The notes below the pieces were generated by a model, which was not told where the DNA came from, ran no database searches, and saw only the letters and a list, made by a program, of their open reading frames with translations. 23,912 nt of DNA from a virus. This document shows positions 817 to 6,663 of the stretch, in pieces. A program made the translations under genes and the position numbers. The first letter of the stretch is position 1. Each line of letters opens with the position of its first letter. The stretch lies in the IMG/VR virus record IMGVR_UViG_3300020452_000507, positions 1-23,912 of that record; one strand, 5' to 3'.

Positions 817-2004
817 TTATTCTACCCCATCAACCCAACATTTAAAAGAATTTAGATGCCATTGTGAATAAAAGTAATATTTCGCCTCTTCACCAGCATT
901 AATAATTAAACATCCATCATGCCAATCATATTTCTTTGCTGCCTTATATACATTCTCAAAGTATCTATCCATTGTAAATGGAATAGACTTTGCATATTCC
1001 CAGAAAGGAGTATCAAACTTAGAACCATACTGATAATGCCATAGTACAAATGTTTCAATCTGTTGCATTGCACCATGAATATGGTCATTCATATATTCTT
1101 TATCTGCTCTTGTAGGTAACAAAGGTTTATGTTTATGCCCATAGTCACTATTTCCATCAATACTATCTATTTGATTAATATAATCCCAAGCAACTTGACA
1201 TACTTTCTGATAAAATGCAGTAGATGTAGCTTCTAATGGTTCTAAAAATGCACATCTATTACCATTAAGAATAGTTCTATCACCAATACAAACTTCTTTT
1301 GCAACGTAATTATCAAATTTTAAATTAGAACCATCAGTCTCAGGAAGATTAAATCTTTCTAAGAAATCTTCTCTTGCTACCTGTGTCGATGTTATTGTAT
1401 CATTATACAAATAACCATAGGATACACTATCCTGATTAGGAATAACAAATGCCCACCCATTAGGAGTAGCAACAGTTCTTGTATAGTGTAAATCGGGATC
1501 TCTACCTTCCTTTCTATAAAGAAGTGCAGAGTTTAAAGGATTCTTTAATGGTAGATATTCAATTTTACCACTCTTATCTTTACCCCTACAATCAATAATC
1601 CAATCAGCATCTACTTCACTTTCAGCATCATTAATAGTTTTCTCAGTAACATTAAAAACACCTGATTCTAATACTGCCTTGGATAGTAAACTTGGAACAT
1701 AGTGCATAGACATTCCATCTTTAGTAAATGGATGAAATATCTTATCATTCTTCTTACCCCACCCTTCATATAATATACCACTTTTGAATGTTGCACCAAT
1801 ATTATTATCATACCAATTAGTCCCTAGAATTGACTCAAAATACAATAAGGGTGCTAATGTTGTACCTTGTCCAACCTTTTCCATTGGATGCTCAACAGGA
1901 CTATGATATATTTCTATCTCAATTCCATTAGCTCTACCATAATGTTGAAAATGTAATGCAGATATACACCCTGCATTACCAGCACCAAGAATTGCTATCT
2001 TCAT
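817..2004 (-). CDS. Flavin-dependent halogenase (tryptophan halogenase family)
   Basis: This is a predicted FADH2-dependent halogenase, in which hypohalous acid made at the flavin is relayed by a lysine to an electron-rich substrate. The 395-residue protein has the FAD-binding GAGNAG at 7-12, GQGTTLAP at 45-52 in the place of the family's GEATxP, and the catalytic-type lysine K74 in NNIGATFK. The signature GWxWxIP appears as GWAFVIP (183-189), with Phe for the second Trp. PLEAT (256-260) carries E258, equivalent to the family's catalytic Glu. The C-terminal LWHYQYGSKFDTPFW region is also typical. It is shorter than the roughly 500-residue bacterial tryptophan halogenases. Cyanophages are known to encode such enzymes, and one viral member iodinates diverse substrates in vitro. 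The natural substrate is unknown. The start overlaps the upstream gene by 4 nt (ATGA), which suggests translational coupling. Confidence 0.9.
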   Translation of the reverse strand: MKIAILGAGNAGCISALHFQHYGRANGIEIEIYHSPVEHPMEKVGQGTTLAPLLYFESILGTNWYDNNIGATFKSGILYEGWGKKNDKIFHPFTKDGMSMHYVPSLLSKAVLESGVFNVTEKTINDAESEVDADWIIDCRGKDKSGKIEYLPLKNPLNSALLYRKEGRDPDLHYTRTVATPNGWAFVIPNQDSVSYGYLYNDTITSTQVAREDFLERFNLPETDGSNLKFDNYVAKEVCIGDRTILNGNRCAFLEPLEATSTAFYQKVCQVAWDYINQIDSIDGNSDYGHKHKPLLPTRADKEYMNDHIHGAMQQIETFVLWHYQYGSKFDTPFWEYAKSIPFTMDRYFENVYKAAKKYDWHDGCLIINAGEEAKYYFYSQWHLNSFKCWVDGVE

Positions 2005-2432
2005 TTAGTATTCCACTCCTCCAAAAGTTTTGAACTACTATTCATCTTATTAGCACCACCAACACCAAATTCAAATATAACTCTAGGATCATCTTTGTAT
2101 TTAATATATTCTGGAGTATTCATTCTACCACGATCTCCTCCATTTGCAAAGACCACTTCCTCATATACTTGTAATGCCATCTCAATTGCATCACAAGCAC
2201 TATCATCTTTATCATTAAATTCAATAACAATATCAGGAGTCTTTAACTCCTTAAGAACTGACACCCTTTCATCTATATTCATAAAAGGTTTTCCTTTTTT
2301 TCTTCTTAACCAATCGTCAGAATTTACAGCAACACATAATGTATCACCAAATTCCTTTGCTGCCTTAAAGTAAGCAATATGCCCACTGTGTAATGGATCA
2401 AATCCACCAGTAACTAATACAACTTTACTCAT
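2001..2432 (-). CDS. Cytidylyltransferase-fold nucleotidyltransferase
   Basis: This enzyme probably transfers a nucleotide monophosphate (CMP or AMP) from an NTP to a phosphorylated small molecule. The HxGH nucleotide-binding motif is in GGFDPLHSGH (residues 9-18). The VNSDDWLRRKKG stretch and a GGDR near residue 98 resemble the C-terminal adenylyltransferase domain of HldE/RfaE and TagD-like glycerol-phosphate cytidylyltransferases. A late NSSSKLL stands where the family's ISTT-type motif is expected. At 143 residues it matches a single-domain member. It overlaps both neighbours by 4 nt. Related enzymes activate sugar or polyol phosphates for surface polymers, but the phage substrate cannot be read from sequence. 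The fold is confident; which nucleotide and substrate it uses is unknown. Confidence 0.85.
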   Translation of the reverse strand: MSKVVLVTGGFDPLHSGHIAYFKAAKEFGDTLCVAVNSDDWLRRKKGKPFMNIDERVSVLKELKTPDIVIEFNDKDDSACDAIEMALQVYEEVVFANGGDRGRMNTPEYIKYKDDPRVIFEFGVGGANKMNSSSKLLEEWNTK

Positions 2433-2944
2433 ATTGATCTAATGAATTGTAAATCATAATCTTCAGATTCCTCAAAGTAATCTCTTGATTCATTTAATTG
2501 ATTATAACCAATTAAAAAGAAATCTTCTGGTTCAGGATCAGCTGATGCTGTATATACTGCTCCAGTATCCTTAAAATTATATAATTTATCTGAGGATATG
2601 CAACATGCCTTACCACTCTTTACATCAGAAACTATAAAGTAATCAGCAAGTTTATCCTCATACTCTTTTGCTGCTCTCCTATTTTTAATTATTAAACCTC
2701 TAATCGCTGTACCTGATTTATTCTTAAACTGTGTTACCTTTGATTCATAGGATACTTTATCCTTAGTTACTAAATCAATACCAGGTAAATTTACCCTTTC
2801 AAGTAAACCATTACTATATTCAGCAAGTGCTTTCTCAACCATTTCACCTGCTTTTGGAAATCTTAAATTGTTATCAGTATAACCTCTAATTGCATATAGA
2901 AGTTTGGATAATCTATCCAACTGAAAGGTTTTGAAATTAATCAT
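2429..2944 (-). CDS. Putative PD-(D/E)XK-type nuclease
   Basis: I do not recognise a named family. The 171-residue protein has a layout typical of restriction-endonuclease-like folds. An N-terminal helix region (GEMVEKALAEY, 33-43) precedes a beta-hairpin with GID (D57) and YESK (E67, K69), spaced as D-x9-E-x-K. A basic IIKNRR (85-90) follows, then a strand region around ADYFIVSDV (100-108). These would be the metal-binding residues of a DNA nuclease. No separate DNA-binding domain is evident, and the C-terminal 30 residues are acidic. It overlaps the helicase gene by 4 nt (ATGA) and is probably translated with it, so the helicase is its most likely partner. It may be the cleavage subunit of a restriction or recombination complex. 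Fold assignment is by eye only. Confidence 0.55.
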   Translation of the reverse strand: MINFKTFQLDRLSKLLYAIRGYTDNNLRFPKAGEMVEKALAEYSNGLLERVNLPGIDLVTKDKVSYESKVTQFKNKSGTAIRGLIIKNRRAAKEYEDKLADYFIVSDVKSGKACCISSDKLYNFKDTGAVYTASADPEPEDFFLIGYNQLNESRDYFEESEDYDLQFIRSI

Positions 2945-4113
2945 CGTGTAATAACAGAAATTGCAGGTTCACCCTTATTGAACACAGTATCAACTACTGC
3001 CTCAACCTTTCTTGCGGTGCTAATCCCAACATTATTATACACAGGAATACATACCTTTCCGTGAGTCTTGTGACACTTTCCTAATCGGATCACTCTACCA
3101 ATCGTTTGACTGATGCTAATATAATCCATATTTCTCATAAACAATGCTGCCTCAAGACCTGCAACATTAATACCTTCTGAAAGGATGCTGTGATGGAGTA
3201 CAATAAACCTTGTATCATCTCTACCCCATCCGTTCAATGTATTAAAAAACTCCTCTCTACCCACCTTTTTACCATTGATTATAGCACCTGTTTTAGCAGT
3301 GATATACATCCAATTATATCCTCTCTCCTTTAACTTACAGCAAAAATCAGTTTGAGATATTAAACTAACAATCTGCTTAGTAGATTTGGCACATATAAGA
3401 ACCTTATCCACACTCAAGTTATCAATAGCACTGAGAATATTCTCTGATTCAACTTCAGCATATATCTCATCTTTTTGAAGCAATCTGGTTTTATATACCT
3501 CAACTTTAGGTGGGAGAATATAACCCTGATCCACTAACTTAGGTGCTGGTACATTCACAATTACATTACCAAATATATCAGTATTATTCATACCAACTTT
3601 AAATGGTGTTCTTGAATGTTTAGGTGTTGCAGTAAAGAAATAAGAACGTAGAGCATTGAATGGTAGAGAATAATGATCTACAGACTCAATAAAGTTCTTT
3701 TGTATTGCGTTATGTGCCTCATCAAAGTATATTGTATCTACAACAATGTCTGCCTCTACCAATCTATGAAGTGAATGATATGTTGTGAAGATTATCTTAT
3801 TACCCTTACAAGATCTCACCCACTTCTCAATCATATCTGCTTTAGTTGTGCTGAAGTGTGAAGTCTCTCCACTGTGTACGTGCATCACAGAAACATTCTC
3901 AATCACTTCCAAGAACTCAGATGATAATTGCTCTGCTAACAGGATGCGTGGAGCAACTACAACAATAGTAGGATAAGTAACACCATCATATCTTCTAATG
4001 GCATCTTCTATCATACACATGGTTTTACCACCGCCTGTAGGAACGATGATTTGCCCCTTATAATGGTTTGCCATAGCATCCAGAGCATCAAATTGGTGTG
4101 GACGTAATGGCAT
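2941..4113 (-). CDS. SF2 DNA helicase, DEAH-box, Res/HsdR-like
   Basis: This is a predicted ATP-dependent DNA translocase or helicase of 390 residues, little more than the two RecA-like domains. Visible motifs are a Q-like element LRPHQFDAL (3-11), Walker A PTGGGKT (25-31), motif Ia VVAPRILLAEQ (52-62), DEAH (131-134), motif III TAT (161-163), motif V-like LSEGINVAGLEAALF (311-325) and motif VI QTIGRVIR (336-343). The style is that of restriction translocases and UvsW-like repair helicases. No nuclease domain is fused; the candidate nuclease is the next gene, overlapping by 4 nt. It is the first gene of the minus-strand operon. No clear Shine-Dalgarno sequence precedes its ATG. It could act in repair or recombination alone, or form a motor-nuclease complex with its neighbour. 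The helicase call is strong; the role is inferred. Confidence 0.9.
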   Translation of the reverse strand: MPLRPHQFDALDAMANHYKGQIIVPTGGGKTMCMIEDAIRRYDGVTYPTIVVVAPRILLAEQLSSEFLEVIENVSVMHVHSGETSHFSTTKADMIEKWVRSCKGNKIIFTTYHSLHRLVEADIVVDTIYFDEAHNAIQKNFIESVDHYSLPFNALRSYFFTATPKHSRTPFKVGMNNTDIFGNVIVNVPAPKLVDQGYILPPKVEVYKTRLLQKDEIYAEVESENILSAIDNLSVDKVLICAKSTKQIVSLISQTDFCCKLKERGYNWMYITAKTGAIINGKKVGREEFFNTLNGWGRDDTRFIVLHHSILSEGINVAGLEAALFMRNMDYISISQTIGRVIRLGKCHKTHGKVCIPVYNNVGISTARKVEAVVDTVFNKGEPAISVITR

Positions 4114-4335: not shown

Positions 4336-5679
4336 ATGACTAACGGACTAGTCGCTGCTATACAAGATCAGGTTGATCCTTTCTTTAAAGAGCAAGAAGA
4401 AGTTCCCGAAAAAACAAATACAATTTACTGCCATCAATTTCCATCAATGATGAAATTGCATGATCTTGGTGACCCAGATTATACTAAATTTGGTTTACCT
4501 TTGTATATTGGTGAAACTTTAACTGAAAGAACAGTAGGAGATAATTTAGTTCGATTCACTGATGGAGATTATTCTAAATGTCCAGAGAGTGTTAATCTAC
4601 TTGCTAAATGGGAAGTACATCCTGATCTTAGTGACCATGATATTCGTGAAGAAATGAGAAAGATTGGATGGAGTAAAACAAATCCTTTTGGTGGTTCACC
4701 AGAACTAAGAGTAAATCCTTTAGAGAATAATTGGTCTCAAGCAGTTCATAATATTGGTGAATTGGTAAAGAGAATGAATGAGTATTATAAAACCTATCAA
4801 AAAGATACAGGATTCTCTCCATTAGTTACTAAGAAGAACTCAAAGAAAAGAAAGGATGATATGCACAGAATCCCTGATCGTGAAGTAATATTTGATCTAT
4901 GCGAAAGGTTGAAAGATTTATCAAAAGATGCTAGAATATACATTCCACAAGATGCTCATGGACACTTTTGCAATTATTTGATAACCAAAATGGGATTCAC
5001 CAATCTCTTTACGGATCAAGCATACAAATATTTTGCTAGAGATGAGTTTATTGATAATCCAGAATATATAACTCACATCACCCAAAATCAATTCAAAGGA
5101 AGAAATATGAAATTTGATGCAATCATTGGCAATCCTCCTTATGGTAAAGGTGGTAAACTAGCAGTTAGTTTCTTGAATAAATCAGGAGAGAAAGTAGGTG
5201 AAAATGGACAGATCCTCTTAGTTTTACCAAGATCACTTAAAGGTGATGCCAATATGAATTTGGTAAATCTCGATCTACATTGTAAATCTAGTGAAGATGT
5301 TGATCCTAAATGTTTTCCTACTGGAATTGATGCGTGTGTTCAAGAGTGGGAAGTAAGAAATTATAATAGAAAATTAATTCCAGTGCATAGAACACATCCT
5401 GATTTCCAATTCTTAAAATATGAAGACAGATTTGACGCAGATGTTTTTATTGGAGAATATGGTGATGGCCCATCTGGTAAAGTTTTAACTGATAAAAATA
5501 AATTTGTAACGTATGCTAAAGGTCATTTCTGGCTTAAAGCAAAACCAGAAATTGTAGAGAGATTGGTAAATCTCGAACCAACTTTACGGAAAGTTGCTAA
5601 AGCAGATACTAATGGTAGAGGTCACTGTGGTAAAAATAAAATAATCAAGGCATATATGGAGGCGTATGATAAAGTTTGA
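4336..5679 (+). CDS. Gamma-class N6-adenine methyltransferase-like protein with degenerate motif I
   Basis: The 447-residue protein carries the catalytic motif IV of adenine methyltransferases in FDAIIGNPPYG (260-270). An ILLVLPRSLKG segment (293-303) follows, as usual in Eco57I-like enzymes. The expected SAM-binding DPxxGSGxF is replaced by a look-alike, IYIPQDAHGHF (201-211), which keeps the strand-loop-helix setting but lacks the Gly-rich loop. The first 180 residues are unrecognised. The C-terminal 140 residues may be the target-recognition part. The last 14 nt overlap the oxygenase gene. Two genes downstream, a 134-residue protein has a good motif I and no motif IV, so the two may form one enzyme. 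Alternatives are an inactive DNA-binding homologue, or an enzyme that binds SAM through a diverged loop. The NPPY motif is certain; activity alone is doubtful. Confidence 0.75.
   Translation: MTNGLVAAIQDQVDPFFKEQEEVPEKTNTIYCHQFPSMMKLHDLGDPDYTKFGLPLYIGETLTERTVGDNLVRFTDGDYSKCPESVNLLAKWEVHPDLSDHDIREEMRKIGWSKTNPFGGSPELRVNPLENNWSQAVHNIGELVKRMNEYYKTYQKDTGFSPLVTKKNSKKRKDDMHRIPDREVIFDLCERLKDLSKDARIYIPQDAHGHFCNYLITKMGFTNLFTDQAYKYFARDEFIDNPEYITHITQNQFKGRNMKFDAIIGNPPYGKGGKLAVSFLNKSGEKVGENGQILLVLPRSLKGDANMNLVNLDLHCKSSEDVDPKCFPTGIDACVQEWEVRNYNRKLIPVHRTHPDFQFLKYEDRFDADVFIGEYGDGPSGKVLTDKNKFVTYAKGHFWLKAKPEIVERLVNLEPTLRKVAKADTNGRGHCGKNKIIKAYMEAYDKV
5658..5662 (+). promoter_or_regulatory. Ribosome binding site of the oxygenase gene
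   Basis: GGAGG sits 3 nt before the ATG at 5666, inside the end of the preceding gene. It is one of the few strong Shine-Dalgarno sequences in the window and supports this start despite the 14-nt overlap. The spacing is short. Confidence 0.6.
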
Positions 5680-6259
5680 ACATTACATCTATACTAACAA
5701 CAATGCTTTACCAGAAGATCTATGTAAAGAAATTATTGATAGATTTGAAAAGGATGATAGAAAACAAGCAGGTCATATACTAAGAAGAGGTCAATTAGTT
5801 GTTGATAAAACTCTAAAAGATTCTGAAGATCTTTTTATTAGTCCCTTTAAAGAATGGAAAGATATTGATAACATACTTTCAAAAAATGTTTCAGAAAATA
5901 TACAAAACTATCTCGATCATTGTTATAAAGGTTTTAATCAACTAGATCCAGTACCAACTCCATTTGGAAGTTGTAAGTTTAAAGATGCTGGTTATAATGT
6001 AAAAAGTTACGAACCAGGTGGATATTTTAATTGGCATAATGATAATACCCAAGAAGATTATCCTAGAATGTTTGCTATGCTATACTATCTAAATGATTTA
6101 ACAAATGATGGTGGTGGTCATACAGAATTTGCAGATGGAACATCAGTTACTCCAACTGTGGGAAAGCTAGTTATGTTTCCTGCCGTATGGAATTTCATAC
6201 ATCGTGGATGTCCACCCCTCAAATATAAAAAATATATTATCTCCACTTACATACACTAA
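5666..6259 (+). CDS. 2OG-Fe(II) oxygenase, prolyl-4-hydroxylase-like
   Basis: This is a predicted 2-oxoglutarate- and Fe(II)-dependent oxygenase of 197 residues. The iron triad is H124 and D126 (FNWHNDN) plus H179 (FIHRG). K189, ten residues after the distal histidine, fits the 2OG carboxylate-binding position. Between them lie the strands LYYLND and GGHTEFADG typical of the double-stranded beta-helix of P4H-type enzymes. Such genes are frequent in cyanophages; protein hydroxylation is the family's best-known activity, but phage substrates are largely unknown. It sits between two methyltransferase pieces, overlapping the first by 14 nt and sharing 1 nt (TAATG) with the next start, so all three are probably made together. 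Action on modified DNA is possible but unsupported by any motif. The enzyme class is confident. Confidence 0.9.
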   Translation: MIKFEHYIYTNNNALPEDLCKEIIDRFEKDDRKQAGHILRRGQLVVDKTLKDSEDLFISPFKEWKDIDNILSKNVSENIQNYLDHCYKGFNQLDPVPTPFGSCKFKDAGYNVKSYEPGGYFNWHNDNTQEDYPRMFAMLYYLNDLTNDGGGHTEFADGTSVTPTVGKLVMFPAVWNFIHRGCPPLKYKKYIISTYIH

Positions 6260-6663
6260 TGGCAAAGAATAAACACAATCAAGAAACAGGATCTAGTATA
6301 GAAAGATCTGATGAAAGAATAGCAGAAACTCAAGAAGTCTTTACACCTCCTGAGATCTGTAGAGAAATGATAGAAAGAATACCATTAGAAACTAGAAAGA
6401 ACCCAGAGTCAAAGTTTTTAGATAACTCTGCAGGTTCTGGCAACTTTCTAGTTGAGTTAAGAGATGAATTAGTTAAGTATCATAATCTCGATCACGTAAT
6501 AGATAATATGCTTTATTGCGTAGAATTAATGGAAGATAATCATAAGGAAATATGTGAACGTCTAGACGTATCAATAGATCACCCACATTATGTTTGTGCA
6601 GATGCTTTAGAATATGATTATAGTTTTGGTAAACCTATTGGTGTTGAATTATTCTTTACTTAA
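6259..6663 (+). CDS. N-terminal half of a gamma-class adenine methyltransferase (SAM-binding part only)
   Basis: The 134-residue protein has motif X EVFTPPEICREMI (26-38), SAM-binding motif I FLDNSAGSGNF (53-63), an acidic motif II position E89 in YCVEL, and a motif III-like CADALEYD (113-120). In complete gamma-class enzymes, motif IV (NPPY) follows within a few tens of residues. Here the frame ends first, with an unrelated-looking tail after GKPIG. Its 3' end overlaps the converging adhesin gene by 8 nt. It may be one subunit of a split enzyme with the NPPY protein encoded two genes upstream, or the stump of a full gene cut when the adhesin cluster was recombined in. Its start shares one nucleotide with the oxygenase stop. 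The motifs are clear; whether it works is open. Confidence 0.75.
   Translation: MAKNKHNQETGSSIERSDERIAETQEVFTPPEICREMIERIPLETRKNPESKFLDNSAGSGNFLVELRDELVKYHNLDHVIDNMLYCVELMEDNHKEICERLDVSIDHPHYVCADALEYDYSFGKPIGVELFFT

Follow-up and report, generated by a model that had tools for sequence, protein, structure and literature searches.

The IMG/VR virus record IMGVR_UViG_3300020452_000507 (positions 1 to 23,912, the whole stretch analyzed here and hereafter the window) is a 23.9-kb marine sequence of the T4-like cyanophage type, with relatives found by tblastn among the Kyanoviridae and in the Llyrvirus S-SKS1. Its plus strand carries three overlapping genes, the outer two of which, here called A and B, most probably encode two subunits of one methyltransferase. 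Gene A (4336..5679, 447 amino acids (aa), phrog_5172) would provide the catalytic part, with the motif NPPY, and the probable target-recognition part, and gene B (6259..6663, 134 aa, phrog_4376) the half that binds S-adenosylmethionine (SAM), with motifs X, I, II and III. Between them lies a gene for a 2-oxoglutarate (2OG)-Fe(II) oxygenase (5666..6259, 197 aa, recognized with both Pfam and PHROGs), a probable passenger at the A/B junction that overlaps A by 14 nt (5666..5679) and B by 1 nt. An earlier note on this DNA, made from the letters alone, had pointed to this division of motifs, with NPPY and a degenerate motif I in A and motifs X, I, II and III without NPPY in B, and our reanalysis bore out the open reading frames (ORFs), their positions and both overlaps. 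The best Pfam matches were Eco57I for A (7e-7), 2OG-FeII_Oxy_3 for the middle protein (1e-13) and N6_Mtase for B (2.9e-4). Both phrog_5172 and phrog_4376 are listed in PHROGs as of unknown function, and the cyanophage records that we viewed mostly label the A and B genes as hypothetical. A single product read through from A to B in the window was ruled out by the 28 stop codons between them.

In A, motif IV (NPPY) occupies residues 266–269 (5131..5142, plus strand, as for all features of these genes), and A relatives share some invariant residues near this motif and farther on. The position of motif I, which a profile alignment matches to EPSAGxGxF in the single-chain relatives, is taken by the non-canonical IYIPQDAHGHF (residues 201–211, 4936..4968), and 25 of the 29 long A proteins have IYxPxD[AS]xGxF there. 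This motif falls within what profile alignment to the single-chain relatives identifies as a retained pseudo-SAM half (residues 183–257, 4882..5106), comprising Rossmann strands 1–3, which the model places at residues 200–203, 223–227 and 245–248. An AlphaFold2 model of window A alone forms a complete M.TaqI-like domain with its own strands 1–3 (mean predicted local distance difference test score (pLDDT) 87), and its best match in the PDB is M.TaqI. Given these strands in the model and the pattern kept in the 25 long A proteins, the old SAM half of window-type A is altered yet retained. The profile of the N-terminal domain of A (residues 25–157, 4408..4806) resembles that of an N-terminal domain of helicases beside other A–B pairs (hhalign E 9e-7). 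A possibly GIY-YIG-like character of this domain was considered and the assignment dropped, as no Pfam match was found up to E 10, which leaves only the relation to helicase N-termini.

B carries motif X as EVFTPPE (residues 26–32, 6334..6354), motif I as DNSAGSGN (residues 55–62, 6421..6444), motif II as YCVELM and motif III as VCADAL, and window B has no motif IV. Across the cyanophage loci B is about 57–82% identical, with its motifs invariant. The AlphaFold2 model of B alone is a half-Rossmann fold consisting only of strands 1–3 and their helices (mean pLDDT 79.8, with core blocks above 85 and the tail at about 52), and Foldseek returned CamA and M.EcoKI as its best PDB matches.

Linkage and complementarity of A and B

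We collected relatives of B from IMG/VR in two rounds and scored linkage on the 79 distinct B sequences with at least 700 nt upstream (loci carry L numbers below). In cyanophages, tblastn found B at 57–71% identity, with a far more diverged A alongside. A gene with motif IV was adjacent to or overlapping B in 66 of the 79 cases and one gene away in 11 more (the intervening gene being an oxygenase in four and another gene in seven); one of the remaining two B genes had a motif-IV gene within 6 kb, and the other, in L080, had an upstream protein with NSPY. Such a gene therefore lay directly or one gene upstream at 77 of 79 B loci, compared with 20 of 578 other ORFs at the same loci. The overlapping pairs that we checked were nearly all in the +1 frame, mostly with overlaps of 14 or 20 nt, and complete reading frames were maintained throughout the A–B loci. 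The distances among A proteins and among B proteins were correlated (r 0.80, permutation maximum 0.17, n=59), a correlation to which shared phylogeny contributes. By pattern, a canonical motif I was present in none of the 75 distinct A proteins beside B, as opposed to 70 of 72 single-chain relatives.

A proteins of the P-SSM2 type are only ~190 aa long (189–207 aa among short A proteins), start with MKFTLAIGNPPYG and have NPPY within about 12 residues of the start, followed by a B of ~133 aa; in many contigs the short A gene overlaps B. Nothing able to bind SAM was found upstream of NPPY in these proteins, and because they begin at NPPY, B holds the only SAM half at such loci. When compared with a family of 38 single-chain enzymes in gamma order (X-I-II-III-IV), which contain both motif sets in one protein (FFH2, for example, has 272 aa), the profile of short A aligned to columns 96–293 (E 1.4e-34) and that of B to columns 34–103 (E 3e-5). 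The two profiles thus lie side by side on the single-chain family, with the halves meeting between motifs III and IV. In L285 and L287, ORFs of the single-chain family open just 14 residues before NPPF; their upstream half may lie in frame, cut off by a stop or by an overlooked start.

A of Shigella phage PSD9 matched positions 2–250 of a single PHROG, phrog_11371, and B of the same phage positions 274–383. From this lead came the fused halves for which the earlier note had suggested a search, proteins with the A–B order in one chain in the Aeromonas phages 65, CC2 and Aswh_1 (382–386 aa) and Aeh1 (415 aa). These fusions have NPPY at residue 8–13, motif I at 313–322, motifs X, I and II toward the C terminus, and no second SAM half. 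Their C-terminal part was matched by B (E 1.4e-13) and their first 50 columns by short A (E 1.9e-6). In a tree of SAM halves, B, the fusion C termini and related bacterial proteins (B′, described below) grouped together, apart from the N-terminal halves of the gamma-order enzymes (100/100), and the Aeh1 fusion grouped with split B of Vibrio, Klebsiella and Shigella phages (97/96). The branches starred in this tree force at least two changes of fused state.

The order of motifs IV, target-recognition domain (TRD), X, I, II and III is that of the beta-class amino-methyltransferases. It is present as gene order in the window and within one chain in the Aeromonas phages, so the order that the earlier note had called reversed is a known one. 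The window differs from beta-class enzymes in using two genes rather than a single polypeptide, and from the gamma-order family in having motif IV first, two genes, and no canonical motif I in A, with a catalytic half that is homologous to that family. Its conserved motifs are shared out between two linked genes without loss, as expected of a split methyltransferase.

B was found with several kinds of A. In the window, S-SKS1 and P-SSM2 its partner is of the phrog_5172 type; in Bellamy and L072 it is an Eco57I-like A accompanied by a helicase and a nuclease-like gene; in MA01, L103, L123 and L124 it is a helicase–A fusion; in Klebsiella and Shigella phages it is a GIY-YIG–A protein; and a Lak megaphage also has an A beside B. 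In several helicase-linked A proteins motif I is altered in another way, to DPxGxH. Window A has an N-terminal domain in common with the helicases that lie next to A, or are fused with it, in L018, L103, L107, L122 and L004. At L107:3436-5014, tandem A-type genes (333 aa with NPPF, 189 aa with NPPY) precede a single B, an arrangement in which one SAM subunit might serve two catalytic ones.

Bacterial genomes (L130–L209) contain a comparable and widespread arrangement, in which 68 of 79 B′ genes are directly followed by a full-length A′ with NPPY (L175:4974-7149, for example). Motif I is intact and NPPY absent in bacterial B′, and A′, wherever its motif I could be recognized by pattern, carries Lys instead of the first Gly (DPACK[TS]G or a close variant). 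These sequences suggest that the B′/A′ pairs are a related two-subunit methyltransferase with the same division of labor.

A conserved protein of ~188 aa lies between A and B at some loci (L005:3436-3999, L072:2747-3313, L096:109-675) and has, by eye, a D...QxK pattern like that of PD-(D/E)XK nucleases; the Bellamy copy had no match in Pfam, NCBIfam or PADLOC. This protein and nearby helicases may form a phage-borne restriction-like module. Within the window, no endonuclease was recognized next to A–B. Minus-strand genes at 817–4113 of the window encode a tryptophan-halogenase-like protein, a nucleotidyltransferase-like protein, a 171-aa protein without a family match and a UvsW-like helicase.

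The C-terminal tail of B

Window B ends in VELFFT (6643..6660), which is like the tails NLELFFS and NLDSFFS of gp43 polymerases and is a putative binding peptide for the gp45 sliding clamp. In T4, gp43, gp55 and gp33 each bind the gp45 clamp through a hydrophobic/acidic C terminus that can be exchanged among them (PMC2988020), and B has a gp43-like hydrophobic/acidic C terminus of this kind. The pattern [LIVM][DE]x[FLM][FM] followed by up to two residues ended 75 of 90 distinct B proteins, where shuffling would give 0.17, and 1 of 554 ORFs other than B; because the pattern was derived from B tails, the count for B is descriptive, and the independent part of this result is that gp43 is nearly the sole other match. 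Among the 218 ORFs of Bellamy, only B and gp43 matched. Within individual phages the two ends can be compared directly: LEMFM in B and NLELFFS in gp43 of Bellamy, VLKF and NLDSFFS in P-SSM2, LDFFFE and SLLDMFDF in KpV477, and LLDIFDF and TLFDMFDF in PSD9. The tail is also kept where a linker has been inserted before it (L036, L038 and L024). By analogy with these clamp ligands, we predict that the B tail is likely to be a gp45 ligand. The only non-B match among the 554 ORFs, a 131-aa S-CAM7 protein (L003:2440-2835) that ends in NLDTFFSK, is another possible clamp ligand.

Explanations for the A–B pair

We consider it highly probable that one phage DNA adenine (N6) methyltransferase is built from A and B as its subunits, with B as its clamp-tethered SAM half and the oxygenase as a passenger. 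The linkage of the two genes, their complementary halves, the short A proteins without a SAM half and the natural fusions in the same order support the split-enzyme reading well. In this enzyme, A would supply the catalytic NPPY and target recognition, and B would supply the SAM-binding half (strands 1–3 with motifs X, I, II and III), and the two would form a physical complex around a shared SAM pocket and methylate a DNA target. The B tail would probably tether the enzyme to gp45, placing the methylation of newly made phage DNA at the replication fork, and this methylation would most likely protect phage DNA from restriction, which is the default reading for phage DNA methylation.

The earlier note's split enzyme has thus been strongly backed, whereas the part that it gave to the oxygenase, as a partner acting with the methyltransferase, has not. 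That the oxygenase is a functional third component, acting on methylated DNA or on the enzyme, could be argued from its place between the halves, its 14- and 1-nt overlaps and its retention in five further contigs. These contigs are all closely related to the window and are the only others with an oxygenase at this junction, and retention within a single group of close relatives says little about selection. In L046, whose A and B are 76% and 82% identical to those of the window, A overlaps B directly by 14 nt, with the B start codon at the relative position taken in the window by the A/oxygenase overlap; A and B overlap without an oxygenase in L058 as well, and dozens of other pairs also lack one at the junction. 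Related oxygenases are scattered nearby in relatives, including two that lie after B in L046. Because L046, L058 and most relatives have no oxygenase at this place, we regard the oxygenase as outside the system, probably, to judge from these gene arrangements, an insertion at the A/B junction that kept the overlapping layout, and a functional role for it in methylation as improbable. Still less credence attaches to the idea that A is active alone, binding SAM in an unusual way, with B a distinct protein that is merely co-transcribed. NPPY and a complete predicted fold in A would fit this idea, as would one B neighbor from outside the set of 75 A proteins, in L007 (S-CAM7 isolate 0809CC03), with an apparently intact motif I (DPAMGGG); against it stand the near-invariant linkage across very different A types, the short A proteins and the fused A–B proteins. 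The altered motif I of A might also suggest that A and B are decayed remnants of a degraded methyltransferase, a reading so hard to reconcile with the 57–82% identity and invariant motifs of B, the invariant residues at and beyond motif IV of A, and the complete frames that we rejected it on conservation.

Several observations weigh against a simple division into two halves. Besides the intact-looking motif in L007, some A proteins paired with B carry NYPY or GNFPYG where NPPY would be expected (L001, L066, L068, L075, L082, L087 and L098). The odd motif I of long A is kept rather than decaying and may do something, and the window A model folds alone, pseudo-SAM half included, leaving no free place for the B half unless that part moves. 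These last points suit a pseudo-dimer, in which A has a full fold, its altered pocket being either without SAM or occupied by another ligand. In this reading B, docked elsewhere, is a SAM-sensing or regulatory subunit that tethers A to the clamp. The conserved pseudo motif I of the complete M.TaqI-like window A, the DPxGxH variants of other A classes, and the bacterial full-length A′ with its Lys motif I beside an intact-motif B′ are all in keeping with this alternative. It is nevertheless rather unlikely, as P-SSM2-type A, with no SAM half at all, would be incomplete without B, the Aeromonas fusions have no second SAM half, and B is just half a fold. In a two-subunit enzyme of the window type, B would either displace the pseudo-SAM half of A or dock beside it.

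The B family would then be a mobile SAM-binding module that has several types of motif-IV subunit as partners and, in some Aeromonas phages, is fused behind one of them; window A would keep, with motif I altered, the SAM half that it once used, and its minimal relatives would have lost that half. A more tentative extension, about which we are nearly evenly divided while leaning against it, is that B is an exchangeable clamp-tethered cofactor half for various catalytic subunits, and that a record of how DNA methyltransferases undergo circular permutation by fission and fusion survives in the series that runs from the single chain through altered-SAM A with B and minimal A with B to the permuted fusion. 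Whether circular permutation in proteins such as methyltransferases arises by duplication or by fission and fusion is debated (PMC3320104), and the presence of both motif orders and free halves in related phages opens this question to testing. If B does bind the clamp through its tail, phage DNA modification would be tied to the replication fork. Two widespread families of unknown function, phrog_5172 and phrog_4376, also gain a likely function.

Comparison with known methyltransferases

The closest single-chain counterparts are the gamma-order enzymes of Vequintavirus and Phapecoctavirus (FFH2 and nieznany; phrog_5172). Like A, they have a catalytic half that is homologous over its whole length, and short A plus B span the same fold; unlike the A–B pair, they run X-I-II-III-IV in one chain with a canonical motif I, and have neither a separate B gene nearby nor a gp43-like tail. 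The fusions of Aeromonas phages 65, CC2, Aswh_1 and Aeh1 (annotated as hypothetical, of the phrog_11371 kind) share with A–B the order of motif IV and then X-I-II-III, and their C-terminal half groups with B, but they are one polypeptide, with a catalytic half from a more distant A family and no gp43-like tail. M.TaqI and CamA, the best fold matches of A and B respectively, each consist of a single chain that has its own SAM site.

Among cytosine-C5 enzymes there are natural examples of split DNA methyltransferases, and two of these, M.AquI and M.EcoHK31I, likewise make one DNA methyltransferase from two polypeptides (PMC3404938). They differ in being divided around motifs VIII–X or IX, whereas A/B would be an amino-methyltransferase cut between motifs III and IV, which separates the cofactor motifs from the catalytic one. 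Our literature search, whose coverage left out most subscription journals, found no split phage adenine methyltransferase and no amino-methyltransferase divided at this point. The clamp-binding C termini of T4 gp43, gp55 and gp33 sit on polymerase and late-transcription proteins and not on a methyltransferase (PMC2988020); the gp43-like tail on B is new here.
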